A stretch of DNA of 38,006 bases from a virus. How positions within the stretch are numbered: the stretch's first letter is position 1; each line of letters begins with the position of its first letter. Made by a program: the position numbers and the translations under genes. Positions 14,282-34,266 of the stretch are shown here, piece after piece. The notes under the pieces are model-generated. The model was not told where the DNA came from. It did no database searches and saw only the letters and a program-made list of their open reading frames with translations. The DNA lies in the IMG/VR virus record IMGVR_UViG_3300024975_000032, positions 1 through 38,006 of that record; one strand, written 5' to 3'.

Positions 14282-15427
14282 TTAACCCAACAACAGCGTA
14301 ATATGCTCTGACTTGATGGCTTTCCAGCCCCAGGCAAGCCGCACATGAATAACGTTTTGCAAAAATTGCTTATAAAGCGCGATTTCAAACGTTAAACCGG
14401 TGACCGGATCGGTCAGCATAAAAGTATCGACTGCCACGTCGCCGCCTCCGGGCAAAGCGGGCGCGCGTGTCGCCAACACAATCGCATTGCGATGGAAAGC
14501 CAAATTAGCCCGATAACCATTACCCAGCGCCATGGCGACATCGTCGGCCAACGCTTTACGTAAGCCGGGCTTGTTCAGCGCCAGCGATCCGGCCGCTAAA
14601 GCCGTGCCGACAACGTACTTATCGGTATCGCCGGTAAACGTCACCACATCGCCCGCCAACACCGTACCGGTTCCGGTATCGACAGCGATACCGGTATCGC
14701 CGACCGCGTAACCGGCAAGTAAATTAGTCTGGTAGGCTGCGCCGGTGCCTTTGGTGTGAGCCAGCACTTGCGCCGAATTATGCAAGGCCAGCCCCTCAAC
14801 CTCGGTCAACGTGCCTTTACGCAACAGCTCATCAGTACCGGCCTCATTAGCCTTGAATAGCCCTGACTGCTTGCCGCGAATATTGAACATGCCGGACGAT
14901 CCAATGACCAAATGCCGGTCACCTTTAGGTGCGCCGTTGTCATCCAGGATTTGCTGCACCCCGGCGAAGTCGGTCAAGTCGCCCGCTGTAGCGAACGGCG
15001 TGGTTCCGGCTGTACCATAGGCGCGAGATGCAAACTTATAAGCGCCAGCCAGATCGGTTTCGATTTCGTTAGCCAGTTGTCGGAATGCCTGTTCGAACTG
15101 TTGCTTTAGGGTATCGTCAAAAGTACCGGCATTTTTCATGCCCAACGTTTGCTCGCCGTTCCATCGAATCGGGATATGCTTGGATTTAGTAATCTTAATA
15201 CCGACATTACCGACAGTTTGATCCCCGGTGTCGGGCGGAGCAGCCCCCGGCGTATTATCGGCAGCCGTACCGATGCCGGCGACCGGAACCAGAACCTCCT
15301 GATCCAACGCCGCGCGCTCAACCATGGAGTTTCGTGATACCGCAGGAATAAAACCGACCAATTCGCGCGATACTACGTTCAGCGCGGCGTACATAGTCGG
15401 GATAAGATTGGTTAACGTATTAGCCAT
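14282..15427 (-). CDS. Major capsid protein, P22 coat family
   Basis: A 381-aa protein that forms the capsid shell. The start (MANTLTNLIPTMYAALNVVSRELVGFIPAV) is characteristic of the P22 gp5-type coat family (split here by motif: NLIPTMYAAL and VSRELVGFIPAV). The middle has KITKSKHIPIRWNGEQ and the N-terminal and C-terminal HK97-fold parts, and residues about 240-300 form a Thr/Asp/Gly-rich inserted domain. AGGA lies upstream of ATG 15427. It follows the scaffold gene by 32 nt. P22-like coat proteins are not those of Mu itself, so the head genes are mosaic relative to Mu. Confidence 0.9.
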   Translation of the reverse strand: MANTLTNLIPTMYAALNVVSRELVGFIPAVSRNSMVERAALDQEVLVPVAGIGTAADNTPGAAPPDTGDQTVGNVGIKITKSKHIPIRWNGEQTLGMKNAGTFDDTLKQQFEQAFRQLANEIETDLAGAYKFASRAYGTAGTTPFATAGDLTDFAGVQQILDDNGAPKGDRHLVIGSSGMFNIRGKQSGLFKANEAGTDELLRKGTLTEVEGLALHNSAQVLAHTKGTGAAYQTNLLAGYAVGDTGIAVDTGTGTVLAGDVVTFTGDTDKYVVGTALAAGSLALNKPGLRKALADDVAMALGNGYRANLAFHRNAIVLATRAPALPGGGDVAVDTFMLTDPVTGLTFEIALYKQFLQNVIHVRLAWGWKAIKSEHITLLLG

Positions 15428-16123: not shown

Positions 16124-16165
16124 AAAAAAGCCCCGACGGAACAAGTTCCGCGGAGCTCTTCGGGC
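16124..16165 (-). terminator. Rho-independent terminator closing antirepressor module 1
   Basis: Read on the minus strand, a GC-rich stem (GCCCGA with TCGGGGC) encloses an inner palindrome GGAACTTGTTCC and is followed by six T. The core GGAACAAGTTCC (16138-16149) is shared exactly with the terminator closing module 2 at 24538-24549. It sits between the small paralog gene and the scaffold gene, inside the late gene run. Confidence 0.75.
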
Positions 16166-16334
16166 ATTAAGAATTAGATCAGCAATAAAGTTAAGTAATA
16201 ATACCTAGTCAACATCGACAGGAACCCATTTAAATTGCACTTAATTTTAACGATAATAAAAAAGTACTACCGTAGGCTGGCTTAGGTATTTTTTGCGCCT
16301 GTAACGCGTTATTTTTTGGGGAGTATAAACCCAA
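16166..16334 (-). promoter_or_regulatory. AT-rich non-coding gap with a possible promoter
   Basis: A 169-nt AT-rich stretch between the small paralog gene and the terminator. On the minus strand TTGACT (16212-16207) and TTTATT (16189-16184) are separated by 17 nt, a possible sigma-70-type promoter. It lies directly before the terminator at 16165-16124, so it would give only a short transcript unless the terminator leaks. A weaker hairpin with flanking A and T runs lies near 16258-16292. No gene is seen. Confidence 0.35.
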
Positions 16335-16565
16335 TCACCTGGCCGAGCGAATATTAACGATTTTGCCTGATTTCAGCACCACTTCCAGCTGTTCGCGGGC
16401 GAGCTGGCTCTCAGCATTCAAAAACGCTAACAGCCCGGCCAGACGGTCGCGGTTGACCGCATGCAAATCGGTCTCGGGTATCAGCAGATCGCTAACCGCT
16501 TGCTGACATGAGGCAATATGATTAAGCCGGTCCAGGGCTTCAATCAATGGATTTTGCGGGCTCAT
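16335..16565 (-). CDS. Small conserved protein of antirepressor module 1 (paralog of 24686-24910)
   Basis: A 76-aa helical protein whose start overlaps the antirepressor stop (ATGA), so the two are probably coupled. It shares about 70 percent identity with the 74-aa protein of module 2, including SDLLIPETDLH/TDLLIPETDLH and VNRDRLAGLLAFL. No membrane segment or known domain is seen. Its repeated linkage to an antirepressor suggests a joint role in induction or host take-over. The 73-aa Icd protein of the P1 ant operon is a functional comparison only; no sequence relation is claimed. Confidence 0.75.
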   Translation of the reverse strand: MSPQNPLIEALDRLNHIASCQQAVSDLLIPETDLHAVNRDRLAGLLAFLNAESQLAREQLEVVLKSGKIVNIRSAR

Positions 16566-17365
16566 TGTTCGCCATCCAGTTGCGCTAAACGGGACAGCAG
16601 CGCAGAGCGTTCGGCCTCTACCAGGGTTTCCAGGGCTTCCTCGACCGACTCACGCGGCAAGGCCGTCTGTGACGCGGACAGTGGGTACTTACCGTTGATC
16701 AATAAACTCACTGCCGTCGTTGAAATGCGCAGTGTCCGGGCGATGTCGCCCATGCTCATGCCTTGTGCCCTGAGCGCCAACACCTGAGCCTCTATCGCAC
16801 GGGTTACCTTGATCTTGCCTTTCTGGTTAATTTCCAGCAGGCCGATATAGCGGGCGGTGACTTCGAGTTTTTGCGCTTGCTGCACTGATACTTCGGCCAA
16901 AGTGCCCATGTGGGTTGCCATCGTGGTCATCACGCTTTCAAGACGATCCAGGCGAGCTTCAACGCTGGCGGGTGCGGCTGGCGTAGCTTGGGGCGCGGGC
17001 TGGCGACCTTTGACTAAAGCTGCATAGGCGCGGATGACCTGCAAATGGAAGGTTGGACTGACCCACATCGCATAAGGGTAAACCAGTTCCTCGACCACAT
17101 AAGTCCCCTGGTCCATGAAGAAGCTTTTGACGATATTGACAGGTTCAATATGGACTTTATCGGTTTCAGGATTTCCTGAATCCGATAAAATCAATGAGTT
17201 ACGCAATTCTGTGATAAATTCTTGGGTTTGCTGATTACGTAACCAGTAACTTGGAGAATGACGGCTTGCGCCGCCTGATGCTTTATGCAAATCAACAAGG
17301 TTAAAACGGCCTTGCTTATCCTGACGGATGGTGATGTTAGCTATGACGGGTGTTAATTGGTTCAT
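16562..17365 (-). CDS. KilA-N domain antirepressor (module 1)
   Basis: A 267-aa protein. Residues about 5-115 match the KilA-N DNA-binding domain (GRFNLVDLHKASGG, RHSPSYWLRNQQTQEFI, GTYVVEELVYPYAMWVSP). A Pro/Ala linker and a coiled coil follow. The C-terminus has a helix-turn-helix (ALRAQGMSMGDIARTLRIS, then AVSLLINGKY). Such proteins relieve repression or act as regulators in phages. Start ATG 17365 has AAGGAGA upstream. It is preceded by a c4-like RNA and leader and followed by the small paralog gene. The lytic-switch role is from family knowledge; the target repressor is not in the window. Confidence 0.85.
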   Translation of the reverse strand: MNQLTPVIANITIRQDKQGRFNLVDLHKASGGASRHSPSYWLRNQQTQEFITELRNSLILSDSGNPETDKVHIEPVNIVKSFFMDQGTYVVEELVYPYAMWVSPTFHLQVIRAYAALVKGRQPAPQATPAAPASVEARLDRLESVMTTMATHMGTLAEVSVQQAQKLEVTARYIGLLEINQKGKIKVTRAIEAQVLALRAQGMSMGDIARTLRISTTAVSLLINGKYPLSASQTALPRESVEEALETLVEAERSALLSRLAQLDGEQ

Positions 17366-17513
17366 GATAGTTCTCCTTGTGAAAAATTAAGAAGACCATC
17401 GCTTAGTTGCTTGGGCGATGGACTGACACAGGTTGCAACAACCGCCCACAAGGAAGCGGCCCGCGCGAACGCGGCCTGTGCCAGCCCACCATAAACTGAA
17501 AAACGGTAGACAT
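17366..17513 (-). promoter_or_regulatory. Antirepressor leader, target of the c4-like RNA (module 1)
   Basis: A 148-nt untranslated stretch between the RNA terminator and the antirepressor start. On the minus strand TTGCAACCTG (17438-17429) can pair with GGATTGCAA of the c4-like RNA (17568-17560), 8 of 9 positions including one G-U. A second possible pairing joins GCTGGCACAGG of the leader (near 17482-17472) with CCAGTGCCGG of the RNA. The leader also has hairpins of its own. Pairing would be expected to control ribosome access or continued transcription, as in P1. Confidence 0.6.
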
Positions 17514-17591
17514 AAAAAAAGCGCTGTGATGCGCTGGCATCTTGTGGTTATAAACGGGGTTGCAATCCCGGCACTGGATTTTGCCAGAGCG
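17514..17591 (-). ncRNA. c4-like antisense RNA upstream of antirepressor (module 1)
   Basis: About 78 nt from the predicted start near 17590 to a T7 run ending at 17514. It begins with a hairpin GCTCTGG-CAAAAT-CCAGTGC, has a conserved GGATTGCAACC segment, and ends with a terminator (AGCGC-ATCACA-GCGCT then T7). The hairpin with loop CAAAAT and the GGGATTG segment are also in the module 2 RNA. Length and position match the 77-nt P1 c4 RNA, which is cotranscribed with, and antisense to, the ant leader. Rfam has a C4 family (RF01695, as I recall it). Not checked by search. Confidence 0.75.
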
Positions 17592-17596
17592 GGATC

Positions 17597-17625
17597 AGGT
17601 TAAATCTTCGTTTGGGTTTTGTCAA
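17597..17625 (-). promoter_or_regulatory. Promoter of antirepressor module 1
   Basis: TTGACA (17625-17620) and TAACCT (17602-17597) are separated by 17 nt. The -35 is consensus and the -10 is weaker. The promoter starts 2 nt beyond the stop codon of the minor head protein gene. It gives a start near 17590, just at the c4-like RNA hairpin. Confidence 0.75.
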
Positions 17626-17627
17626 AA

Positions 17628-18779
17628 CTATTTCATAAACACCTCCTGGGTCATCAAGCCCAAGCCATCTGCTCTAATCAAATCCTCCAGCTTCGCACCG
17701 TCCTTGATGGCCGTTTGCGCCCAGTTCGGCAATAACCGGTTGCGCCGATCCGGCGGACTGTTCCTGACAAACTCGACGTAATTCGTTGAGCCGTTTTGCT
17801 TGATCGGCGTAACGCGAGGGATCAGCAAACACATGCAATGCGGGTGGGCTTTATGACGTGGCACGGCCTCTTTAGTCCATACGCCTTTACCCAGGCCCAT
17901 CTCAATCGATGCGTAATAATCGCAAATGTCGGTGACCGGGTGACTGGACGATAAGCGCCATTGATAGCCGATGATGGTATCGTCGCCTTCAGTCGAAGCA
18001 ATCACCGCCCGATGCGCGGCGGTCGCCATTTCGGTGCGGGCAATACGCTTCAGGTTGTACAGCTGCTTGTCGTACAGCCACCACTTGACCGCCTTATCGA
18101 CCAGCTCCTCGGAACCTTTATCAACCGCCTTCTTGATTTGATCGAGCACCCGTTCGGCGGCATGACGGGAACCGGTGCTCTTGAGCATCGAAATACGCTC
18201 TTCTGCCTCGCCGACTACGACCTTCCAGGAAGATTTGGCTTCCGGTTCATGAATCAGCGCCGTGGCCGATGCGTGCAGTTCCGTGACCCAGTCATCGGCG
18301 TGATCGGTGACAATTTTAAAGCGGTTGCCGCCGCGCTCAATAGCCCGCTGCATATCATACAGCACGGCGTTAACGGCTTTGCCCTGCCGGATACCGGCCT
18401 GCAACTGTTGTTGCACACCGGTACGGGTGTCTTTTTTCCAGCGCCAAAGCCGGTCGGATAAGGTCAATCCATCCGGCCAAGCCTCGACAAAGGCTTGCTC
18501 GGCCAGCTTTAACACCGTTTCGGATTGCAGGCTCACAGCGGTCAACGGCAAACCGGCAGCTACAGCAACAGCGCTGCCGATGGCGTCCTTAATAACATGA
18601 TTAATGCCGCTTAAATGGCTATTCAGGGCGGCTTCAGCGTCGCCTGACAGCTGCCAGCCTTCGGCCTGTAACTTTGCTACAAATTGCTTGATAAAAGCGC
18701 TGGTGTCAGCGGTTATCTGACCGTCGCGCTTGAGGATTTCTTGTGCGAGGCGTTTGTAGAGCTGCTCGTAGTCGGTCAT
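17628..18779 (-). CDS. Minor head protein, Mu F / SPP1 gp7-like
   Basis: A 383-aa protein. The C-terminal part (residues about 240-345) matches the phage Mu F-like head morphogenesis domain: RIARTEMATAAHRAVIAST, then a Cys/Asp/His pattern ending RHKAHPHCMCLLIPRVTP. The N-terminal 200 residues are helical. The family acts in head assembly and DNA ejection, usually next to the portal gene, and here it follows the portal after one small gene. The antirepressor module 1 promoter begins directly after its stop. Confidence 0.85.
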   Translation of the reverse strand: MTDYEQLYKRLAQEILKRDGQITADTSAFIKQFVAKLQAEGWQLSGDAEAALNSHLSGINHVIKDAIGSAVAVAAGLPLTAVSLQSETVLKLAEQAFVEAWPDGLTLSDRLWRWKKDTRTGVQQQLQAGIRQGKAVNAVLYDMQRAIERGGNRFKIVTDHADDWVTELHASATALIHEPEAKSSWKVVVGEAEERISMLKSTGSRHAAERVLDQIKKAVDKGSEELVDKAVKWWLYDKQLYNLKRIARTEMATAAHRAVIASTEGDDTIIGYQWRLSSSHPVTDICDYYASIEMGLGKGVWTKEAVPRHKAHPHCMCLLIPRVTPIKQNGSTNYVEFVRNSPPDRRNRLLPNWAQTAIKDGAKLEDLIRADGLGLMTQEVFMK

Positions 18780-18787
18780 AGCTTAAT

Positions 18788-18837
18788 CTGGAGTTCAAAG
18801 CTTGCTTTGAATGTCCAAAGCAAGCTTTGAACTCCAG
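18788..18837. repeat. Perfect 22-bp inverted repeat between head genes
   Basis: The arm 18788-18809 (CTGGAGTTCAAAGCTTGCTT plus TG) is an exact reverse complement of 18816-18837, with a 6-nt spacer aatgtc. It fills most of the gap between the 71-aa gene and the minor head protein gene. There is no T run, so it is not an ordinary terminator. In RNA it would form a stem of 22 pairs that could be an RNase processing site or protect mRNA ends. It may also be a mobile palindromic repeat. Confidence 0.85.
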
Positions 18838-18846
18838 CGCAAGGCA

Positions 18847-19062
18847 TTAGGCCGTCGCCTGGGCATTCATCGCCTCTTCAATTTGTTTCTTTACATCGTA
18901 TAAGTAGCCATCAATGTTCACGGCCTTACCTGTATCCAATTGAATTTCAACACCAGTTATGCCGTTGTAATTAATTGGACGAAAATGCGTAATACGGTCA
19001 GCTACGATAAATACCTCGCCAGCACCGACCCCATAACCTCTAAAAGTGATAACCTTACTCAT
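18847..19062 (-). CDS. Small phage protein between portal and minor head genes
   Basis: A 71-aa protein, beta-rich followed by a C-terminal helix. The pattern VADRITHFRPINYNGITGVEIQLDTGKAVNI resembles small single-strand-rich proteins of the FlbD/KTSC-like kind, but I do not claim membership. It overlaps the portal gene by 4 nt (ATGA), so it is translationally coupled. Function unknown. Confidence 0.6.
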   Translation of the reverse strand: MSKVITFRGYGVGAGEVFIVADRITHFRPINYNGITGVEIQLDTGKAVNIDGYLYDVKKQIEEAMNAQATA

Positions 19063-20390
19063 GCCCCGGCCTGCTGCGCTAACCGATCCCCGTAAGTATC
19101 CCCCTGGGCGTCAATCTCCTTATCAATCGCCGTCATCACCGACGGCGAGGTATCGTTACCCAAAATCTGCTTGGCCAGGCGTTTTTTCAGCGCCTTGTCA
19201 AACTCGCTCCCCATACCCAGACTGACCGAATCCATTGCGGTGGCTATCGCCTGTTGCAAATCTGTCAAATTAAAATCGTTCGGATAAGCGATATTGCCGC
19301 TAAAAGTCTGACCCTGCCACAAATACACCAGGTCGGCGATTTCATTCTCAGCGGTCTCTGCCATCTCGCTCATACCGCGCAAAGAGCTGTTGGCTTCCTG
19401 GAAATGGAATGACAGCGCGACACCGCTTTGCTGCACGCCGCCGACAAACTCCAGATTGGCAACCCGGTAAATATCCTCAATCGTCGCGGCGATCTGCTTC
19501 ATGTACAAATCAACCGGATCGGGCGGCGGCGCGACAAATCCGGGTTTACCGCCGCCTGCCGGATTATACGAAATCGCATTTTCAGTACCGACGGTCATGT
19601 CATTCAGCTTCTGGGCTTCGGCCGGATCATTAACCGGTATGGCGAGTATCGCAAACGTTTGCGACCGGAACAGCTCGCGCAGCTCAGAACGCTGGTTGTA
19701 TAAATCCCAGTTCAGGTTGGCCAGATCATAAACCCAGCTTTGTGATTTGCTGTCAGTCGGATTCAGCGGTTTAGCGATATGCAGCCGCACCACCGGCACC
19801 CGGCCCAGCTTGTAATCGCCTTGTTCGGCTTTGCCATCCTTGATAACTACCTCATTACCCTCAAGATCTTTGGTTAACTTCCAGCCGGTACGGGTAAAGG
19901 TGCGATAAACCGTATCGGAGCCGTTCTGCTCGCTAAACGTCACCGAGGTCCAAGCGCCGACGTTATCCTTTTGCTCGCCGACCAATTGACCGGGCAAGCG
20001 CAAGGCCAGATAAGGCAGGGACTGGTTAGCCTTGGTCGGGCCTTGGGTTTTGGGTTTATCGACAATGATATACACAGTGCCAAGGATCATCGCCAAGCGT
20101 TGATAGGTAAACAGCAAACTATCCAGCTTGGTGCCTGCGCCGTTGGCGTTGCCTGTAAATTGGGTATACAGTTCGTCAACCTCGCGGCTTGGCGCTTGTT
20201 TCCACAAAAATCCCATCATCACATCGACGATTTTTCGGGTGAAATTGGGATAAACGGCCAGCTCTTTGCGCCGATCCAGCTTTGCGGTCGATTCGCGCGG
20301 GTGTGCAATCAGGTATTCGCCGGTCGCAAAGCCGCCCTGGCCGGAGTAGGCGTCGAGTAAAAATTGATCGGAAGTGCGGTTTACAGCCAC
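19059..20390 (-). CDS. Portal protein
   Basis: A 443-aa protein forming the dodecameric ring through which DNA enters and leaves the head. It lies between the terminase large subunit and the minor head protein, as expected. Portal-type features include an early YPNFTRKIVDVMMGFLW helix, the aromatic-rich VYDLANLNWDLYNQRSELRE stretch and a long helical part (AATIEDIYRVANLEF, MSEMAETAENEIADL). It looks like the siphophage-type portal and not the Mu gp29 family. Overlaps the terminase stop by 10 nt. Confidence 0.85.
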   Translation of the reverse strand: MAVNRTSDQFLLDAYSGQGGFATGEYLIAHPRESTAKLDRRKELAVYPNFTRKIVDVMMGFLWKQAPSREVDELYTQFTGNANGAGTKLDSLLFTYQRLAMILGTVYIIVDKPKTQGPTKANQSLPYLALRLPGQLVGEQKDNVGAWTSVTFSEQNGSDTVYRTFTRTGWKLTKDLEGNEVVIKDGKAEQGDYKLGRVPVVRLHIAKPLNPTDSKSQSWVYDLANLNWDLYNQRSELRELFRSQTFAILAIPVNDPAEAQKLNDMTVGTENAISYNPAGGGKPGFVAPPPDPVDLYMKQIAATIEDIYRVANLEFVGGVQQSGVALSFHFQEANSSLRGMSEMAETAENEIADLVYLWQGQTFSGNIAYPNDFNLTDLQQAIATAMDSVSLGMGSEFDKALKKRLAKQILGNDTSPSVMTAIDKEIDAQGDTYGDRLAQQAGA

Positions 20391-21835
20391 GGCAAACTCC
20401 AGGCCCGATAATCGGCCTTTTTCTTGTTAGGGTTACGTTTCCAAAACAGGTACTGCGACATCGAGTCAACCTGATCGTCATGTTTAACGGCCGGAAAATT
20501 GGTGCATTCGTTCTCGAACTCGGCCGACCAAGGCACGGTATGCTCGTCAGGCAGCCAGACTCGGCCAGACTCAATAGCCGATGATTCCACGCTCATCCGT
20601 GTGACTTTGTCGCCTTCCGGTTCGATCATAATCACGCTGTATCCGGGCAACTCTTTCAATTCCTGGCCTAAAGCCGTGCCGTGTCCTTTGTCCTCGATCA
20701 GAATCGCACTCGGGTTCCAGCGCTTCTTTTGTTCGATTGCAGCCCGCTTGAGCTTTGGGTATTCCAGCTTTTCCCGGTACACATCCAGTAAATAATCATC
20801 GCCTTCTTCAGTCTCGCCCCAGGTCGTGCAAACGTTGTAATCGTTTTTCAGCGCCGCTTTTTGCGCGGTGTCCCAACTCTGCACAATCCGGGTAAAGCGC
20901 GGCTTGTAGCGGTAGCGCTTAAACCAAGTAATATTGATAATATCGCCTTCAACCGCCGCCGGACGGCCCTGGTACAGCGAGTAATAACTGCGGCCCAGGA
21001 TCGTCCTCAGCTTAGCCAGCGCGGCTTCGTTAAACCGGGCCGGACATAAAGCCGCGCCGACCGGTCGCCCCAACGGATCACCGTATTCGGCTTCAGCGGC
21101 CAGGTTAATAACTTCAAAATCATCGGCAAAGTCGCTCTTCAGGATGCGGCCGACCAGGTCGTCTTCGTGCCAGCGGGTCATAATGATGATCATCACGCCA
21201 CCGGGTTCCAGCCGGGTAAAAATGTCGTCGGTAAACCAGTCCCATATTTTTTCCCGATAGGTTTCCGAGTTGGCTTCTTCGCGGGACTTGACCGGATCGT
21301 CAATAATGATCAGGTTGGCACCGTGACCGGTAACCCCGCCGCCAGCACCGACCGCACGCAGACCGCCGCCTTCTGAGGTTTCCCATTCGCTGGTAGTATT
21401 GGCATCTTTCGCTAAGGCCATGCGCGGTGCAGCAATGCGCCGAGTCTTCCTGCTGAACTTTAACGATAAAGCGGCGTTATAGGCCCCAACAATGGTGCGC
21501 AACTTCGGCCAGCGTTCCATCAAATACGCGGGATAACGCACCGTCACCTGTTCGGATTTACCGTGCCTCGGCGGCACCGATAAGATCAAATGACGGGGCT
21601 TGTGGTCCGAAACCTCGCCTCGTAGTGACTGCTCCAGCATATCGTTGATCGGCTCAAGCCGGGATCGGATATAAGCCAAATGCGGCCAATCCCACCGGAA
21701 CTCGGGACTGGCCTGACGGCACCACTCGCCAAAAGACAGCGCTGTACTGTTTTCGCCGTTCTCGGCCTCGGCCAGGACAGCTTCGGCGATATCCGAAACT
21801 TCGCCTAAAAACTCTTTGCGGACGCGTTTAGCCAT
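20381..21835 (-). CDS. Terminase large subunit
   Basis: The packaging motor, about 484 aa. ATG 21835 is preferred over an upstream TTG at 21853; it overlaps the small subunit by 8 nt. Walker A is LSVPPRHGKSEQV (near residues 83-95), Walker B is LIIIDDP (near 175), and a coupling motif MIIIMTRWHEDD follows. The C-terminal half has RNase-H-like nuclease features (QSWDTAQKAA, ILIEDKGHGTALGQ, DDQVDSMSQYL). Transposable phages use such motors for headful packaging from replicated copies inside host DNA. Confidence 0.92.
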   Translation of the reverse strand: MAKRVRKEFLGEVSDIAEAVLAEAENGENSTALSFGEWCRQASPEFRWDWPHLAYIRSRLEPINDMLEQSLRGEVSDHKPRHLILSVPPRHGKSEQVTVRYPAYLMERWPKLRTIVGAYNAALSLKFSRKTRRIAAPRMALAKDANTTSEWETSEGGGLRAVGAGGGVTGHGANLIIIDDPVKSREEANSETYREKIWDWFTDDIFTRLEPGGVMIIIMTRWHEDDLVGRILKSDFADDFEVINLAAEAEYGDPLGRPVGAALCPARFNEAALAKLRTILGRSYYSLYQGRPAAVEGDIINITWFKRYRYKPRFTRIVQSWDTAQKAALKNDYNVCTTWGETEEGDDYLLDVYREKLEYPKLKRAAIEQKKRWNPSAILIEDKGHGTALGQELKELPGYSVIMIEPEGDKVTRMSVESSAIESGRVWLPDEHTVPWSAEFENECTNFPAVKHDDQVDSMSQYLFWKRNPNKKKADYRAWSLPWL

Positions 21836-22427
21836 TGGCCAACATTTCAGCAAACGGCTTTAAAACCACGGCGAAGGCTTTTTTCATATCCGGGAACTTC
21901 TCGGCAATAAAATCCCGCAGGCGTTTAATCACGTCCATCCGGGCCTTGTACACGGCCTCTTCGAGTTCGGCCTTGTATTTTTGCGAGGCAATCTCAACCC
22001 GGCCCAGATCGGCCAGCGCTTTGGCGATCTTCGCGGTCGTCTCAGCCATCTGGTAAGGATTGTCGTCAGACTCTTCCGCTTCCCTCAATGCGGATGACAA
22101 GCGCAACAGCCGGGTTTGCAAGGTGCGGATGGTCGCATCGCGCACCACGCCTTCGGTATCTTCGTTATTAGCCATCGCGATCTTGGCAATGCGATAAGTC
22201 TGATTCGCCTCAGCCATATCGCGCTCGAAGCTTTCCTGAAACGATTTGCCGTAGCGGTTGGCCGCCATCACCGACACTTTCATGTCGATACCTTCAGCCT
22301 TCAACCGATCATTAAGCCAATCGGTCAGCCCCTGGTAATCGCTAAAGCCGCCCGCGACAAGCTCGGCCTCGAACTCTTCGCGGATTTTGGCCGGGACCTG
22401 GGTTTTAATCTTGGATCGGCGGCCCAT
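21828..22427 (-). CDS. DUF3486 family protein, terminase small subunit (Mu gp27-like)
   Basis: A 199-aa protein matching the Mu gp27 / DUF3486 pattern: MGRRSKIKTQVPAKIREEFE at the start, then an HTH-like part (DYQGLTDWLNDRLKAEG), and a long helical C-terminal half. The family is the likely small terminase subunit of Mu-like phages. It lies between gp26-like and large terminase genes, the same order as in Mu. Confidence 0.9.
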   Translation of the reverse strand: MGRRSKIKTQVPAKIREEFEAELVAGGFSDYQGLTDWLNDRLKAEGIDMKVSVMAANRYGKSFQESFERDMAEANQTYRIAKIAMANNEDTEGVVRDATIRTLQTRLLRLSSALREAEESDDNPYQMAETTAKIAKALADLGRVEIASQKYKAELEEAVYKARMDVIKRLRDFIAEKFPDMKKAFAVVLKPFAEMLANG

Positions 22428-22429
22428 GA

Positions 22430-22726
22430 CTACCCGCCAAACGGCAACGGCCGCGCGATGCCCGGCACCTCAACCACGCCTTGCGCAATCTCCAATCCGG
22501 CAGGCGTCAGCACGGCAATATGCACACCGCCGGAGGTCCGGTCAACAATCGCATCCGCATTGTTTTCCAGCCAGGCCAGCTCGATATGCAGGTTATCCCG
22601 ACTCAAAGTAAACCCTTGTTCGCGCAACGCTTTCAGCACCGTTTCCTGGTGGGCTTGATATTGCGCTTGCCGCTCTAAGATCAGCAAAATCAGCAGCCGG
22701 ACTTGGGCGCGTTCATAAGTAGCCAT
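22430..22726 (-). CDS. Mu gp26-like small winged-helix protein
   Basis: A 98-aa protein between DUF2730 and DUF3486 genes, the position of Mu gp26. It has the pattern LLILLILERQAQYQAHQETVL, then ALREQGFTLSRDNLHIELAWLE and a beta-hairpin, consistent with a winged-helix fold. AAGG lies upstream of the ATG. Function in Mu-like phages is not established; a packaging or transcription role is possible. Confidence 0.75.
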   Translation of the reverse strand: MATYERAQVRLLILLILERQAQYQAHQETVLKALREQGFTLSRDNLHIELAWLENNADAIVDRTSGGVHIAVLTPAGLEIAQGVVEVPGIARPLPFGG

Positions 22727-22731
22727 TGTTT

Positions 22732-23121
22732 TTACCTTTTCTGCAATAATTGAATCAAATGCTGATCGATGCGGCTCATGTTCTTGGAGATTTCATCAAG
22801 ACGGCCTTCCAACGGCCCGACGGTCTCCAGCACTTTGTCCATGCGCCGATGTACAACGCTTAAATCTTCTTTTGAAATGCCGTTTTCGACGTCGGTCTCA
22901 ATCGCCGACAGCCGTTGCCCTTGCTCGCTGACTTGTTGGCTGATAGTCTTGACATCGTCCTGCACGTCTTTAATGTCATTCCGCAGGCTGTCTTTAACCG
23001 CCTTCAGTTCATCGGCCGCCGCTTTGTGCCGATTGCTAAACGCCACAAACAGCGCCAGGCCGAAATTCAACAGCAGCAACGACAACGTCCAAAAGTTAAA
23101 GTCGAAATTAATTGTTCCCAT
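22732..23121 (-). CDS. DUF2730 membrane-anchored coiled-coil protein (Mu gp25-like)
   Basis: A 129-aa protein with one N-terminal membrane segment (FWTLSLLLLNFGLALFVAFS) and a long coiled coil, as in the Mu gp25 / DUF2730 family. It lies between the spanin genes and the gp26-like gene, the same as in Mu-like phages. The role is unknown; the anchor and coiled coil suggest an envelope-associated role. Confidence 0.85.
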   Translation of the reverse strand: MGTINFDFNFWTLSLLLLNFGLALFVAFSNRHKAAADELKAVKDSLRNDIKDVQDDVKTISQQVSEQGQRLSAIETDVENGISKEDLSVVHRRMDKVLETVGPLEGRLDEISKNMSRIDQHLIQLLQKR

Positions 23122-23171
23122 CAGGCACCTGTATTATTTTTGTTAAAGTGTATTAAGGCTTATTGCCTGAC

Positions 23172-23480
23172 TTAAGGAGGCTTGCTGTCGCCAGCTGCCG
23201 TTGATGGCTCCCTGGGGCTATGGGTCGATTTAATAACCACTTCCAGCCGTTCTGCATACTGCCTTAGCATCCGGTTCCGCTCGGCGACACGCTCATAAAC
23301 GGCATCGTTTAAGCAGCGTAATTCGGCGGAATTAATCGCCGGTAAAGCCGGTCGAACCGGCAGCGGCAGCGCTGTAGTGATCATCAGCGGTTGCGGCGGC
23401 GTTGCCGTGCAGCCCTGTATCATCAGACCAATCATTATCAAGATCAGTGCGAACAGCCAAATGTTGCGGGTTAGTATCAC
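23172..23480 (-). CDS. o-spanin (Rz1-like lipoprotein)
   Basis: A 102-aa protein from GTG 23480. Signal sequence with membrane-spanning core (IWLFALILIMIGLMIQGC) and lipobox ending at Cys24 (MIQGC). A Pro-rich stretch (TPPQPL, LPLPVRPALP) follows, as in Rz1 outer-membrane spanins. The first 150 nt lie inside the Rz gene in another frame, a known overlap of spanin pairs. Works with Rz to fuse inner and outer membranes at lysis. Confidence 0.8.
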   Translation of the reverse strand: MILTRNIWLFALILIMIGLMIQGCTATPPQPLMITTALPLPVRPALPAINSAELRCLNDAVYERVAERNRMLRQYAERLEVVIKSTHSPREPSTAAGDSKPP

Positions 23481-23688
23481 GGATAGTCTCCTGGCGTTGA
23501 CGGGTTTCTAAAGCGGTTAGCGATTGATCCAGCTGAGTGCGGTGCTGTACTTGACCCTGCGCCGCCTCACTGATGGTTTTTTGCAAGGCGGCGTAGTGTT
23601 CGGCTTGCTGGGCTTTGTGTTTGTACGACAACGCGACAACGACCAGGATCAAAACGGCCACCAGCACGATTAACATAAAGACCATCAT
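23332..23688 (-). CDS. i-spanin (Rz-like)
   Basis: A 118-aa protein with an N-terminal membrane segment (MLIVLVAVLILVVVALSY) and a helical periplasmic body (QQAEHYAALQKTISEAA...). Its 3' part overlaps the o-spanin gene in a different frame. Start ATG 23688 overlaps the holin stop (ATGA). Its pair is the lipoprotein at 23480-23172. Together they complete lysis by disrupting the outer membrane. Confidence 0.8.
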   Translation of the reverse strand: MMVFMLIVLVAVLILVVVALSYKHKAQQAEHYAALQKTISEAAQGQVQHRTQLDQSLTALETRQRQETIRDTNPQHLAVRTDLDNDWSDDTGLHGNAAATADDHYSAAAAGSTGFTGD

Positions 23689-23885
23689 TTCAGGCGCACC
23701 CCGGTGGTTGTTAAGGTACGCAGGTAGATATTGCCCGATGACACCAGCATCATTAAGGCTAAATAGCTGCCGTCAGACAGATAGCTACGCAGTAAATCGG
23801 TATGGTCGACCAGCACAGCGAAAGCCGCTATAGCTAAGTTGAACCATAAGGTTTTGCTCTGTGCGATAGGCTTTGTTTCTTCCAT
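23685..23885 (-). CDS. Putative holin
   Basis: A 66-aa protein from ATG 23885, which has GGAG 6 nt upstream; the longer frame from 23948 lies within the endolysin gene and is less likely. It has hydrophobic segments (LWFNLAIAAFAVLV and YLALMMLVSSGNIYL) separated by a charged loop, and a basic tail, the size and layout of a small holin. It lies between endolysin and spanin genes, supporting the assignment. Confidence 0.75.
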   Translation of the reverse strand: MEETKPIAQSKTLWFNLAIAAFAVLVDHTDLLRSYLSDGSYLALMMLVSSGNIYLRTLTTTGVRLK

Positions 23886-23899
23886 TACGGGCTCCTGAA

Positions 23900-24319
23900 T
23901 TAAATAATGTTGGCCAACTGAAAATGCATGCCGTCCGGCTTGGCCCACGTACCGCCCCAGTCAAAGCCGTTATCGGTAAAGCAGGCCACAAAACGAGGAC
24001 TTAAATTAGGCGGCTTACCAAACTGGTTCCAGGCCGCATTGACATCGATCGCCAGTCCCCAGCTATGCAGACTCAGACTAGCTGCACCGCGCTTTCTACG
24101 GATATTGAAACAGCCGTCCCAAGTCTTCAGCTCCTTAACGCAGCCGGTCTCAATCAACGCCAAAAAGGCGGCGCTTAACGGCCCGACCATCCGTTTGTTG
24201 CAATAAATGCGTTTGGGTATGCAGCCGGTTTCTAACCACGTCGGCACATCAAACATCACCATGTCCTTTTCTTTAATAGGGTCGCCAAGGATTTGTTGGC
24301 ATTGTTTTGCGCTTAACAT
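23900..24319 (-). CDS. Endolysin, M15-type peptidase
   Basis: A 139-aa protein with the M15/VanY-like zinc peptidase signature: SLHSWGLAIDVN (His85 and Asp92) and DGMHFQ (His132). The family cuts peptide links in cell-wall peptidoglycan. It has no signal peptide, so it depends on the holin downstream. AGGAGA lies upstream of ATG 24319. It is followed by holin and spanin genes, together a complete lysis set. Confidence 0.88.
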   Translation of the reverse strand: MLSAKQCQQILGDPIKEKDMVMFDVPTWLETGCIPKRIYCNKRMVGPLSAAFLALIETGCVKELKTWDGCFNIRRKRGAASLSLHSWGLAIDVNAAWNQFGKPPNLSPRFVACFTDNGFDWGGTWAKPDGMHFQLANII

Positions 24320-24348
24320 CGTCTCTCCTGGTCTGGTCTGGTGCGCTT

Positions 24349-24498
24349 TTAACAGCGCCGCCTATGAAAATAATTGATCACGTAGTCGCGAACCCATTCA
24401 CGCCAGATCGGCGGCACCTGTTCGACGGCGGCACGGCGTTGGTCCGCTGTAGTCAAAGCGATAATGGCGGCAGCGTAATGGCGAGGACGCGTCAACAT
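24349..24498 (-). CDS. Small 49-aa phage protein upstream of the endolysin
   Basis: A short ORF read directly: it begins MLTRPRHYAAAIIALTTADQ and ends VINYFHRRRC (49 aa). An in-frame ATG at 24510 would add four residues. Small Arg-rich proteins of the form RPRHYA...WVRDYV are familiar from lysis regions of other proteobacterial phages. Neither start has a good ribosome site. It lies just after the terminator that closes module 2, so a separate promoter or readthrough would be needed. Function unknown. Confidence 0.7.
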   Translation of the reverse strand: MLTRPRHYAAAIIALTTADQRRAAVEQVPPIWREWVRDYVINYFHRRRC

Positions 24499-24521
24499 GG
24501 GGGAGAGCATAAACGGCGAGC

Positions 24522-24558
24522 AAAAAAAAACGCCCTCGGAACAAGTTCCAGGGGCGTT
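24522..24558 (-). terminator. Rho-independent terminator closing antirepressor module 2
   Basis: Minus strand: stem ACGCCC(C) with (G)GGCGT around the inner palindrome GGAACTTGTTCC, then a run of nine T. The core GGAACAAGTTCC (24538-24549) is identical to the one in the module 1 terminator. It lies between the small paralog gene and the lysis genes. Confidence 0.85.
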
Positions 24559-24610
24559 TCAATTTGATTTATTTGATATTAAAACAGTAGTTTAGATCAA
24601 CGTCAAATCC

Positions 24611-24680
24611 GTAGGGGCAATCCCTTGTGGTTGCCCTGATACACCACGAATTCAGGGCAACCACAAGGGATTGCCCCTAC
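24611..24680. repeat. Perfect 29-bp inverted repeat (GTAGGGGC-type palindromic element)
   Basis: The arm 24611-24639 begins GTAGGGGCAATCCC and is the exact reverse complement of 24652-24680; the spacer is 12 nt. Flanking ATCAACG (24597-24603 region) and CGTTGAT extend the symmetry with a gap. Related GTAGGGGC hairpins occur before the MuB gene (33824). This looks like a non-coding palindromic repeat or MITE-like element inserted between the small paralog gene and its terminator. On the minus strand a poor promoter-like pair (TTGACG 24606-24601, TAATAT 24581-24576, spacing 19) lies just beyond it. Confidence 0.85.
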
Positions 24681-24685
24681 GTTGA

Positions 24686-24910
24686 TTATTTCACCGGGCG
24701 AAGACTGACGACAACCTGACCCGAAGCCAGCGCCACCGTCAGCTGCTCCCTGGCCAGCTGGCGCTCGGCATCCAAAAACGCCAGCAGTCCGGCCAGCCGG
24801 TCGCGGTTGACGACATGCAGATCCGTTTCGGGTATCAGCAAATCAGTGACCGCTTCTTGGCAGGTGGCAATATGGTCGAGCCGGTCCAGGGCGTCGATAA
24901 CCGGATTCAT
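24686..24910 (-). CDS. Small conserved protein of antirepressor module 2 (paralog of 16335-16565)
   Basis: A 74-aa helical protein, about 70 percent identical to the 76-aa protein of module 1, with the shared core DLLIPETDLH and VNRDRLAGLLAFL. DNA similarity is also strong across the whole gene. Start ATG overlaps the stop of the 63-aa gene (ATGA). The two proteins are the most conserved coding part of the two modules. Function unknown. Confidence 0.75.
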   Translation of the reverse strand: MNPVIDALDRLDHIATCQEAVTDLLIPETDLHVVNRDRLAGLLAFLDAERQLAREQLTVALASGQVVVSLRPVK

Positions 24911-25098
24911 GCCGCCACCTCAATCACCTCGGCATCCGCATTATCGACCGCGGTTTTGCCGTCGGGCTTGGTCACCCAGCTATACAGCAGGTCGGCGACC
25001 TTTTGCGCGGCCCGATAGGTCTTCCAGCGCCGGTGAACGATGCGCGTCCAATACTCGCCGGTCTGGTAGTGGGTGTAGGTTTGGCGAATGGCGTACAT
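24907..25098 (-). CDS. Small protein present only in antirepressor module 2
   Basis: A 63-aa protein with a basic, aromatic N-terminus (YTHYQTGEYWTRIVHRRWKTY), then a helix and an acidic tail. It lies between the antirepressor and the small paralog gene, overlapping the first by TAATG and the second by ATGA. Module 1 lacks it. No family recognised. Confidence 0.6.
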   Translation of the reverse strand: MYAIRQTYTHYQTGEYWTRIVHRRWKTYRAAQKVADLLYSWVTKPDGKTAVDNADAEVIEVAA

Positions 25099-25802
25099 TA
25101 CACACCGCCTTGTTTATCTGCAATAGCCTTCTTGTAACGGAGATGATCTACACGCCCTTTAACGGCTTGATTAGTACGGCCTAACTGCCGTCCGATTTCG
25201 GTATGGTTAAAGCCTTGCGCTCTCATGGTTTCCGCAGTCTCATCTTCTTCTGGAGTCCAGGGACGGTACGGTTTTAACGGAACTGGCTGAGTTACCGGTT
25301 TTGCTGGGTCGCGTAAAGACAGATAATCTGCGCCACTGATAATCACTGGAACCGTCCTCAGGGCGTTTTCCGCTAAGGCATTAAGGCTATCGTATAAAGC
25401 CGTTCGATGCTGCTCAAATTCTGCCAGAGTTAACGGTTTAGAGACCGGTGCAAGTAATGGATGTAGGTAATTTCCTTCGCGCAACTGCCTTTCACAGTCC
25501 ATGAAGTAACGACGGGCTTGCTTACCCTTGTCGTTGTGCTCGACCATTGCCAGCTCTTTTGCCATGCCCAAAGAGAGGTGGTATTCCTTAGTCGGACGGC
25601 CGCCTTGAGGTTTCGCCCCATTTTGGGCGAAACTGATAAAGTCTTGGTTTTCTTGAAAATCGTATTGATTAATGCGCTCTATAATCCATGATCGAAAATG
25701 TTTACCAACCTCTAAAAACGAATGCAATAACTTAGCATCGACCAGTTGAGCAGGTACGCCAGCGATTTCGCCAGCCAAGACGGGGATTAATTGATTATTC
25801 AT
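25098..25802 (-). CDS. AntA/AntB domain antirepressor (module 2)
   Basis: A 234-aa protein. Residues about 14-110 match the AntA/AntB antirepressor domain (DAKLLHSFLEVGKHFRSWI, then YHLSLGMAKELAMVEHNDKG, and ARRYFMDCERQL). The C-terminus has a Myb/SANT-like or GcrA-like helix-turn-helix (PWTPEEDETAETMRAQGF, then IGRQLGRTNQAVKGRVDHLR). P1 Ant proteins bind and inactivate the phage repressor; the target here is not in view. AAGGA lies upstream of the ATG. Preceded by a c4-like RNA and leader, as in module 1. Confidence 0.88.
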   Translation of the reverse strand: MNNQLIPVLAGEIAGVPAQLVDAKLLHSFLEVGKHFRSWIIERINQYDFQENQDFISFAQNGAKPQGGRPTKEYHLSLGMAKELAMVEHNDKGKQARRYFMDCERQLREGNYLHPLLAPVSKPLTLAEFEQHRTALYDSLNALAENALRTVPVIISGADYLSLRDPAKPVTQPVPLKPYRPWTPEEDETAETMRAQGFNHTEIGRQLGRTNQAVKGRVDHLRYKKAIADKQGGV

Positions 25803-25954
25803 GCTGAATTCCTTAGGGTAAATTAATATCCCGGCAACATGACGCCAATCATGGGTGCCGGACTGGACAGGTTGGCGTACCGGTTACCCACCGGCCAGCC
25901 TTTTTAGGGGCTGCCTGCCCAGCCCGACATAATGAAGAGCTGATGCAATGGCAC
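25803..25954 (-). promoter_or_regulatory. Antirepressor leader, target of the c4-like RNA (module 2)
   Basis: A 152-nt leader. CGCCAACCTG on the minus strand (25877-25868) can pair with GGATTGGCG of the RNA (26007-25999) at 8 of 9 positions. Module 1 has TTGCAACCTG against GGATTGCAA, so both sides change together between copies. A second pairing is possible between GTCCGGCAC of the leader and GTGCGGGAT of the RNA. Hairpins such as GGTGGGTAACC lie in between. Confidence 0.6.
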
Positions 25955-26030
25955 AAAAAAACCGCATGAAGCGGCCATATGCCGGGTAAAAACCGAGACG
26001 CCAATCCCGCACGCTGGATTTTGCCAGCGC
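25955..26030 (-). ncRNA. c4-like antisense RNA upstream of antirepressor (module 2)
   Basis: About 76 nt from the predicted start near 26030 to a T7 run ending at 25955. It starts with a strong hairpin GCGCTGG-CAAAAT-CCAGCG, has GGGATTGGCG, and ends with a terminator (CCGC-TTCAT-GCGG then T7). The hairpin loop CAAAAT and the GGGATTG are the same as in module 1. The outer segment CCGAGA before the start and TCTCGG inside the RNA are also complementary. Length matches P1 c4. A c4-type (RF01695) covariance search would test it. Confidence 0.75.
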
Positions 26031-26036
26031 ACGAAC

Positions 26037-26066
26037 AGATTAGCCTCTCGGCCTGGGGTTTGTCAA
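26037..26066 (-). promoter_or_regulatory. Promoter of antirepressor module 2
   Basis: TTGACA (26066-26061) and TAATCT (26042-26037) are separated by 18 nt. It begins 12 nt beyond the stop codon of the 169-aa gene, and gives a start near 26030, at the first base of the conserved RNA hairpin. Confidence 0.7.
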
Positions 26067-26078
26067 ATACTAAGTTTT

Positions 26079-26588
26079 TCAATCAGTCGGCAATCTCACG
26101 CCATCTGCAAACAGACTTGGCCAACCCGCTTTTAAAGCATTCGGACTGATGGCCTCTGAAACAAGTTGATAGGCGTTGTAACGGCCCTCCTTATGTTTTT
26201 CTAATACGCCTAGATTCGACATAATGTAAAAAAAGATATCGGCAGTGCGTTTTTCGAGGTTTAGGTCTTTGACGATGTCAACGCTTCGCGCACTACCCTT
26301 TTCAATCAAAATCGCTTTGATTGCTGTCCAATGTTGTAATCCATAGATGAGGCATTGCACATCAAATCTTGTCATTTCCCATCCCTGGATTGGATTATAG
26401 ATTTCCTTTCCGTCTACTTGTTCGGCCAGGCCCAATAAGTATTCGAGACCAGGCTGCAAGGATTCGAGCGTTCCGCATTTCAATATCTCGTCAAGCATTT
26501 GATAAAACAATCGCTTGATCGTCCAGTCTTTTTGAAACCTGTCCCGGCGTTTTTGCTGAGAACGCTGGTAAATTTCGTCTGCATCCAT
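26079..26588 (-). CDS. Accessory phage protein with winged-helix-like C-terminus
   Basis: A 169-aa protein. The N-terminus is basic and helical (QRSQQKRRDRFQKDWTIKR). The C-terminal third (ARSVDIVKDLNLEKRTADIF, then MSNLGVLEKHKEGRYNAYQL) looks like a winged helix-turn-helix. AGGAGG lies 6 nt upstream of ATG 26588. It is more AT-rich than the surrounding structural genes and lies between a palindromic repeat cluster and module 2, so it may be acquired. Regulatory function is a guess from the fold. Confidence 0.6.
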   Translation of the reverse strand: MDADEIYQRSQQKRRDRFQKDWTIKRLFYQMLDEILKCGTLESLQPGLEYLLGLAEQVDGKEIYNPIQGWEMTRFDVQCLIYGLQHWTAIKAILIEKGSARSVDIVKDLNLEKRTADIFFYIMSNLGVLEKHKEGRYNAYQLVSEAISPNALKAGWPSLFADGVRLPTD

Positions 26589-32660: not shown

Positions 32661-32845
32661 GACTGCTTACCGTTGAGTTGATCCAGCACGGCCTTATTTT
32701 TACTGCTCAACGTTATTTCAAACGCTTTGCCGTCGCCATCGGTAATGATCAGGTTCATGTAGTAATAACCAGGCTGAGCCTCAATGCTGCCAACCGGAAT
32801 GGCGGTAATGCTTTTAATGTCCTCAAGAACCAGTAACGCCGCCAT
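32657..32845 (-). CDS. Small early phage protein
   Basis: About 62 aa from ATG 32845, which overlaps the MuB stop as TGATG. A beta-rich protein (YYYMNLIITDGDGKAFEITL) of small size. No family recognised. Confidence 0.65.
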   Translation of the reverse strand: MAALLVLEDIKSITAIPVGSIEAQPGYYYMNLIITDGDGKAFEITLSSKNKAVLDQLNGKQS

Positions 32846-33798
32846 CACTCACCCCCTAAGCTTTGATAAGCCTGCTTAATCGCGCCCAATTGCAACGCCT
32901 CACCGGCACCCAGTGCCAACATGGAAGCCAGTCGCAATGTTTCTGTGACCATGCCTAGCGCTCCGGGTTTCGAGGCAATCTTGGCGCAATAATCAACCAG
33001 GGATCGACCGGCGCTACCGTCAATCGTCAGCCCCCACGCCCACAAAATGACCGTGACATCCTCGCGGGTCGGCTGTTTTAAGGCTTGTTTCTTGCTGATC
33101 CGTCTAAATAGCGGTGCATTCAGCTCTGATCTACGCCCGGCCAGGTTGCTGTAGGCTTGTTCTGAGCCGACATAGGCCACGCCGATCTTGGCGACGTCGA
33201 AAATGTTCTTGATGCCCCACAAGGCATCGGTAGACAGCAATTGGGATTCATCCAGGATCAACAGCCCTTGGGTGCCTTTTAGCCGGGCAATCACTTCATC
33301 CTCTAAATCAGCCGTGCGGTGGCTAAAACCGCGCAAGCCAACGGCTGACGCAATCCGTCGTAAACAGGCCGGATAAGACGCGGCGGATGGCGAACAGGTC
33401 ACCACGAAGACATTAGGATGTTGTGTGGCGAAAGCTTCGCAGGTACTGGTCTTGCCAACACCGGCGCCGCCGAAGACACACACCGACACTTTAGCCATCC
33501 GCGCATAGGCCAGGGTGGAGAAAATCTTCTCCGCGGTCGGTGTTTTCACCCAATCCGGAGCATTGGGCATTTCCGCCCGCTGCATGGCTGAGTCTTTGCG
33601 GGTTTCCAGCCAGATTGTCAGCTGTTGCTCGATCTTGTCATTGTCGCCCTGGTATTTGTCCTGCAACCATTGGTTGAGTTTGCTGCCGCCCGATGATTCA
33701 ATCCCTGCTTCTTTACTGGCTTGGGCTTGGCTTAGGCCTGCTGTCGCTATCTCTTTTCTCACTCGCTCACGCAAGTCGTTTTGTTTTTCCATAGTCAT
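32845..33798 (-). CDS. B: MuB-like AAA+ ATPase, target DNA selector for transposition
   Basis: 317 aa from ATG 33798, which has GGAG 10 nt upstream; the longer in-frame ORF from 33900 lies in the structured leader. Length matches Mu B (312 aa). N-terminal HTH (SQAQASKEAGIE), then Walker A (GGAGVGKTS near residues 110-118) and Walker B (LLILDESQ near 179-186). MuB forms ATP filaments on target DNA and brings it to the transposase. Preceded by a structured leader that separates it from A and a 118-aa gene. Confidence 0.93.
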   Translation of the reverse strand: MTMEKQNDLRERVRKEIATAGLSQAQASKEAGIESSGGSKLNQWLQDKYQGDNDKIEQQLTIWLETRKDSAMQRAEMPNAPDWVKTPTAEKIFSTLAYARMAKVSVCVFGGAGVGKTSTCEAFATQHPNVFVVTCSPSAASYPACLRRIASAVGLRGFSHRTADLEDEVIARLKGTQGLLILDESQLLSTDALWGIKNIFDVAKIGVAYVGSEQAYSNLAGRRSELNAPLFRRISKKQALKQPTREDVTVILWAWGLTIDGSAGRSLVDYCAKIASKPGALGMVTETLRLASMLALGAGEALQLGAIKQAYQSLGGE

Positions 33799-33906
33799 TT
33801 TTGCTATACTCCAGTTTCTTGTTGTAGGGGCAAATTGATTCGCCCTTGTTGTAAAACGGCTGTTAAGCCGCGTTTTAAAAGGGCTTTTGGTTGCAGCCAA
33901 AGGCCT
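33799..33906 (-). promoter_or_regulatory. Structured leader before the B gene
   Basis: This 108-nt gap holds three hairpins. One, on the minus strand, is near 33903-33878 (GGC-TTTGG ... CCAAA-GCC then CTTTT), terminator-like. One is 33853-33876 (AAAACGGCT with AGCCG-CG-TTTT). One is the GTAGGGGC type at 33824-33848 (GGGC...GCCC), related to the larger palindrome at 24611. It may reduce or time B expression relative to A. No promoter stands out. Confidence 0.55.
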
Positions 33907-34263
33907 TTATTTATTATCTGATTCAGCTTTTTTAAGCATTTCCCCTTGCTGCCAACGCATCCCCAATACCTGCTGAATTTCGTTGAATGCCCGGTCTTGA
34001 GCAAGACCGCCATGCTCACGCCTATCCAGAGCTAAGTAATATTGATTTATCGCCACATGCACCTTAAGCAATCTTACTGATGATTTTTCCCAAAATTCGT
34101 TAAGAACACCCGCATCATCAGGCTTTGCTATCTCATTACAGATTAAGTCAATAGCCATACCGATCATGATCCAATCGCCGCAATTCAATTCCTGATTTGA
34201 TGCGGCCTTGCTTTCTAAGTGTTCAAAGGCTTTCTTCAGATGAACCAATACTTCTCTGTCCAT
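33907..34263 (-). CDS. Early phage protein between A and B
   Basis: A 118-aa helical protein (LVHLKKAFEHLESKAASNQE, then IMIGMAIDLICNEIAKPDDA). GGAGGG precedes ATG 34263, 3 nt after the transposase stop. No family recognised. Its place between transposase and ATPase genes is unusual, as Mu has A directly followed by B. Confidence 0.65.
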   Translation of the reverse strand: MDREVLVHLKKAFEHLESKAASNQELNCGDWIMIGMAIDLICNEIAKPDDAGVLNEFWEKSSVRLLKVHVAINQYYLALDRREHGGLAQDRAFNEIQQVLGMRWQQGEMLKKAESDNK

Positions 34264-34266
34264 TTT

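Follow-up and report, generated by a model that had tools for sequence, protein, structure and literature searches.

In the Salmonella prophage Gifsy-1, the short IsrK RNA turns on translation of anrP at a locus that drives prophage induction, and the authors likened the adjoining orf45/STnc1160 to the CI RNA of P4 (PMC4825925). The P4 CI RNA, an antisense RNA processed from its own transcript, pairs with the sites seqA and seqC up- and downstream (PMC4825925). In phage P1, c4 RNA represses synthesis of the antirepressor Ant (PMC8546580); the heteroimmunity of P1 and P7 is treated elsewhere (PMC12197685). Here we describe two modules with an isrK RNA, a C4 RNA and an antirepressor gene in IMG/VR record IMGVR_UViG_3300024975_000032, a viral record of 38,006 bases (the window) from a Mu-like transposable phage. 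Both modules are members of the known isrK-C4-antirepressor kind. We consider it very probable that each is a switch of a phage living in Methylomonadaceae, methane-eating bacteria, and that the two switches have different antisense specificities, as their complementarity indicates.

Both modules lie on the minus strand and run in the order promoter, isrK, C4, antirepressor, small partner gene, and terminator, with an additional gene of 63 amino acids (aa) before the small gene in module 2 (Table 1). An earlier sequence-only reading had named most of these parts, and all of them were found, one by one and in the order described. It was also right that the antirepressors belong to different families, KilA-N in module 1 and AntA in module 2 (PF04383 and PF08346, both over cutoff), that module 2 has one more gene, and that the small genes are paralogous, their 76 and 74 aa products being 73% identical. 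Its RNA assignment needs correction. The RNA of 76 to 78 nucleotides (nt) with a CAAAAT loop, which it took to be c4-like, matches isrK (RF01394; 76 to 77 nt). A C4 (RF01695) is indeed present in each module, above the gathering score in the covariance check that had been proposed, but it lies inside the stretch of about 150 nt that had been read as leader. The isrK RNA overlaps a match to the C4-target family c4-a1b1 (RF03163), which here falls under its cutoff. Upstream of the RNAs, the promoter motif (searched as TTGAC[ACT]-N15..19-TA[ATC]NNT) stands 5′ of 67 of the 97 C4 loci from the host family, against a mean of 0.9 and a maximum of 3 in shuffles.

The same arrangement is found in Gifsy-1: one promoter, an isrK with a terminator that allows read-through, a C4 and an antirepressor (PMC4825925). 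In the Gifsy-1 sequence (NC_010392), isrK lies at 34240-34316 and C4 at 34131-34214 (69 bits), followed by an antirepressor-like gene; the C4 match coincides with the published orf45/STnc1160 stretch. The modules of the window differ from Gifsy-1 in four ways: a small gene follows the antirepressor, there are two copies with different keys, the carrier is a Mu-like phage, and the antirepressors belong to other families.

Within each module, C4 is complementary to two sites in its own isrK (a1 and b1) and to two sites before its own antirepressor (a2 and b2). In module 1, the C4 loop UUCCUUGUG is complementary to CACAAGGA at the ribosome-binding site of the antirepressor and to CCACAAG of isrK, while GUUGCAA has its partners in the UUGCAAC of isrK and the GCAAC directly after C4. 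The module 2 counterparts are ACGCCAA, with UUGGCGU as its partner both in isrK and before the antirepressor, and GGGUAA, with UUACCC in the same two places. That the arms a′ and b′ are complementary to sites upstream of and at the antirepressor start agrees with membership of the C4 family. As in the immI operon of P1 and P7 (c4-icd-ant), a C4 antisense RNA stands over an antirepressor operon (PMC8546580). Unlike immI, the modules have no icd gene between C4 and the antirepressor, whose ATG directly follows C4; b2 is directly at the antirepressor start, and an isrK-type RNA with its own terminator lies upstream.

Seed matches are specific to the module. They reach 7 to 8 nt at both targets within a module, as opposed to 4 to 6 nt across modules. 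Among 38 distinct C4 loci, own matches measured 7.2 nt on the isrK side and 7.4 nt on the antirepressor side, compared with 5.4 and 5.3 nt for swapped pairs (permutation P = 5 × 10−5, which is the floor of the test; 0 of 20,000 relabellings did as well). For the 97 host-family loci, 91% of own combinations matched over at least 7 nt at both targets, compared with 8% of non-own pairs, a count that favours the latter because a non-own pair was scored if either direction matched. This family-wide specificity, together with the seed lengths in the window, argues against the idea that the modules are not independent, with either C4 or isrK acting on both antirepressors and the second copy serving as dosage; we regard that idea as unlikely, even though the promoters and the 5′ parts of isrK are similar and whole-RNA duplex energies are alike for own and cross pairs.

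We therefore favor two separately keyed switches, which would work as follows. A constitutive-looking promoter would yield isrK, and read-through of its terminator a longer RNA with C4 and the antirepressor operon, from which C4 would be released by processing. Ahead of the antirepressor start, a2 and b2 would be bound by the arms a′ and b′, which would block translation and keep the lysogen quiet. Since isrK holds the same two sites (a1 and b1), it may compete for C4. When C4 runs short, antirepressor would be made and would presumably inactivate the phage repressor; small protein, by virtue of the gene overlap, would be made only together with it. Several points weigh against this account. 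Duplex energies of the whole RNAs did not separate own from cross pairs, and the seeds of module 2 are short, at 6 to 7 nt. We found no phage repressor in the 38,006-nt window, so that the target of the antirepressors is presumed. In Gifsy-1, the one phage for which a trans action of the short RNA on the read-through transcript has been shown, IsrK acts by refolding in cis and trans (PMC4825925), and the role of isrK may therefore differ from simple competition. Finally, the working of the switch is here a prediction from sequence.

Table 1. Features of the two modules and of the surrounding phage genes; positions are those of the window.
Feature	Positions	Strand	Support or detail
Head-morphogenesis gene	17628-18779		stop just before module 1 promoter
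Module 1 promoter	17597-17625	-	TTGACA-N17-TAACCT; TTGACA at 17625
Module 1 isrK RNA with terminator	17514-17590	-	RF01394, 57.5 bits (cutoff 50)
C4-target sites in module 1 isrK	a1 17559-17565; b1 17541-17547	-	complementarity
Module 1 C4 antisense RNA	17411-17496	-	RF01695, 72.0 bits (cutoff 45)
Pairing arms in module 1 C4	b′ 17447-17455; a′ 17433-17439	-	
Module 1 antirepressor leader	17373-17410	-	a2 GCAAC 17406-17410
b2 over module 1 ribosome-binding site	17374-17381	-	CACAAGGA
KilA-N antirepressor-like gene, 267 aa	16562-17365	-	PF04383, E = 2 × 10−19; PHROG 129/2812/2127
Small partner gene 1, 76 aa	16335-16565	-	start overlaps antirepressor stop (ATGA)
Module 1 terminator	about 16124-16165	-	core GGAACTTGTTCC
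Gene before module 2	26079-26588		stop precedes module 2 promoter
Module 2 promoter	26037-26066	-	TTGACA-N18-TAATCT; TTGACA at 26066
Module 2 isrK RNA with terminator	25955-26030	-	RF01394, 57.7 bits (cutoff 50)
C4-target sites in module 2 isrK	a1 25998-26004; b1 25983-25989	-	
Module 2 C4 antisense RNA	25851-25934	-	RF01695, 53.5 bits (cutoff 45)
Pairing arms in module 2 C4	b′ 25884-25889; a′ 25872-25878	-	
Module 2 antirepressor leader	25816-25850	-	a2 TTGGCGT 25842-25848
b2 adjoining module 2 ribosome-binding site	25816-25821	-	TTACCC
AntA/AntB-type antirepressor gene, 234 aa	25098-25802	-	PF08346, E = 5 × 10−25; PHROG 5817/377 anti-repressor Ant
Extra gene, 63 aa (module 2 only)	24907-25098	-	start overlaps antirepressor stop (TAATG)
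Small partner gene 2, 74 aa	24686-24910	-	start overlaps 63 aa gene stop (ATGA)
Module 2 terminator	about 24522-24557	-	core GGAACTTGTTCC
Terminase	20381-21853		Pfam/PHROG profile matches
MuB	32845-33900		PF09077
MuA-type transposase	34267-36381		PF02914

The phage is Mu-like by its MuA and MuB genes, and its relatives include a prophage (L014) in a Methylobacter metagenome-assembled genome. Because a second viral contig, IMGVR_UViG_3300024902_000001, also holds both modules, with identical proteins, the pair is no assembly accident. Relatives of the phage offer two sites for such modules: slot 1, between the head-morphogenesis and scaffold genes, and slot 2, after a Mor-like gene and before the lysis genes. 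Slot 1 has a KilA-N module in the window, L010, L011 and probably L007; it is only 283 to 347 nt long in L020, L022 and L027, and is filled by other sequence in L021, L026 and L029. C4 modules occupy slot 2 in L005, L014, L029 and probably L205, and in L217 a module of C4, antirepressor and small gene precedes a lysozyme-like gene. Judging from this occupancy, slot 2 is the usual site and slot 1, empty or otherwise filled in relatives, an accessory site; module 1 is thus the accessory addition. The same pattern could suggest that recombination left module 1 behind in a decaying or inert state, with module 2 alone active. We find this very unlikely, as module 1 lacks none of its parts and shows no damage in them, its C4 outscores that of module 2 (72.0 versus 53.5 bits), and L011 and L007 hold diverged yet intact slot 1 modules with changed seeds.

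At the DNA level, the modules resemble each other in the promoter and 5′ isrK (76% over 71 nt, E = 1 × 10−6), the small gene (79% over 180 nt, E = 7 × 10−42) and the terminator (80% over 44 nt, E = 5 × 10−6); no similarity was found outside these three parts, and the antirepressors are unlike. The copies are mosaic, as had been proposed: across loci the antirepressor domain is swapped (KilA-N, AntA, ORF6N or Bro-N), while the RNAs and the small gene are kept. The sequence-only reading went further and saw a mobile regulatory unit, whose edges a DNA alignment should define. The alignment bore out the shared parts but gave no repeat that defines the ends of both copies, and the modules contain no mobility gene. 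That the window holds two mosaic copies, and that the tandem copies in another contig (L069) share a flank, could be taken to suggest a self-mobile element moving as a unit between phage sites. With similarity as patchy as this, we hold that view to be highly improbable, and exchange between phages by ordinary recombination is enough to explain the modules.

C4 matches over cutoff occur in 107 of 237 host-family genomes. We surveyed 100 records, namely 99 viral contigs picked by an isrK pattern plus phage B23; 76 carry a C4, and 8 of these 76 carry two. The double module is thus not unique, and two C4s per viral record are uncommon. In one double record (G672) the first copy seems decayed, and in another (G714) one seed is common to both C4s. 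Eight of the nine double records examined, the window and L069 included, lack full cross-matching, which is about chance level. Nor do the data support general selection for differing seeds in co-resident C4s: in the set of 97 loci, drawn from 37 genomes, cross-reactivity is seen in 11 of 90 co-resident pairs and in 8.2% of other pairs, and identical co-resident pairs exist.

The closest parallel is one of the eight surveyed records with two C4s, L069 (IMGVR_UViG_3300003177_000099, 221-1460), where two isrK-C4-Bro-N modules with different seeds share one Mu-like contig and a related small gene of 58 aa lies between the copies. Unlike the modules of the window, these copies are in tandem, have about 90% identity across the promoter, both RNAs and the leader, and encode antirepressors of one family. 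The six pairing sites (a1, b1, a′, b′, a2 and b2), whose columns were named by hand, make up 68 of 230 columns and contain 25 of 45 differences (Fisher P = 4 × 10−5). This tandem duplicate, with pairing sites that have changed in concert, is new, and it offers a natural experiment on specificity change after duplication. More broadly, these results extend the immunity logic of isrK and C4 to transposable phages of methanotrophs and indicate that one phage can hold two differently keyed copies.

Two further loci have paired C4s. In L198 (G179), two similar C4 leaders at 4621-4705 and 15095-15179 are separated by 10 kb and point in opposite directions; their scaffold is nearly constant, but the seeds are swapped (GTGAGAA and GTAGGAA). 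An int-alpA RNA is nearby. The two C4s of L199 (G045:C48, 1-19001) look like those of two adjacent or nested prophages rather than of one phage: one Mu-like prophage, its C4 module in slot 2, stands beside structural genes of another Mu-like element, whose slot 1 holds a KilA-N module oriented the opposite way. One element may be inserted in the other.

The small partner protein matches no family in Pfam, NCBIfam, PHROG or PADLOC. Searches seeded by the protein, not by C4, found homologs in viral contigs, one sequenced phage and the Methylobacter prophage; at genome level, 12 of 237 from the family gave a homolog, as did a few of 369 from the class. Among 22 evaluable independent loci (L004, cut short, was excluded), 18 have a C4 RNA 0.3 to 1.4 kb upstream on the same strand. 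The exceptions are L206 (a Bro-N gene, with no C4 found), L218, L219 (a weak match) and phage B23. The earlier expectation of homologs near antirepressor genes held, since they stand mainly in C4-controlled operons, where the gene between C4 and the small gene encodes a KilA-N, AntA, ORF6N or Bro-N antirepressor. In an alternative, satellite-like arrangement, short genes precede the small gene and a DUF3987 or VapE-like replication gene follows. This recalls the P4 satellite, in that some operons headed by C4 combine such genes with the small protein; unlike in P4, the target in the modules would be antirepressor translation, not replication-gene transcription. The order C4, short gene, small partner gene and replication-type gene (DUF3987/VapE-like where tested) is seen in L208, L209, L212, L213 and L215. 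In the Alteromonadaceae phage B23 (KY939598; L166, 5992-6195), which is Mu-like, a distant homolog occupies the slot 2 position, accompanied by neither a C4 nor an antirepressor.

In both modules the small-gene start overlaps the preceding stop (ATGA), as does the start of the 63 aa gene in module 2 (TAATG), so translation should be coupled to that of the antirepressor, which the small protein probably aids or modulates. The fold predicted by AlphaFold is a two-helix hairpin (mean predicted local distance difference test score 81), with no match below E 0.4 in the PDB. This fold led us to consider a Rop-like RNA-binding role; the proteins are acidic (isoelectric points 4.9 and 6.0), and we set this aside as a weak idea. 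The family, undescribed in databases, is new and by its gene neighborhoods appears to travel with C4-controlled operons, common to phages and satellite-like elements. We put forward, as a tentative and rather doubtful extension, that it is a dedicated two-helix regulator of C4 operons, shared within the same hosts by Mu-like phages and satellite-like elements, which tunes the antirepressor or C4-target pairing, and that duplication of a C4 module is followed by concerted change at all six pairing sites, so that one phage can have two independently keyed induction switches.

The extra 63 aa gene matched no known family in profile searches; L005, whose antirepressor is an ORF6N-type protein, has a homolog (59%) at the same position. 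Rfam matches to mir-624, PyrR, greA and His_leader at 24523-24687 were dismissed, being far below cutoff and overlapping a palindromic repeat and the terminator. This near-perfect palindrome (24606-24687), with arms of about 30 nt (GTAGGGGCAATCCCTTGTGGTTGCCC), lies between small gene 2 and the terminator. It is a dispersed repeat with dozens of copies in 2 of 41 Methylomonadaceae genomes, and elements resembling it stand at the same site in L004 and L005.

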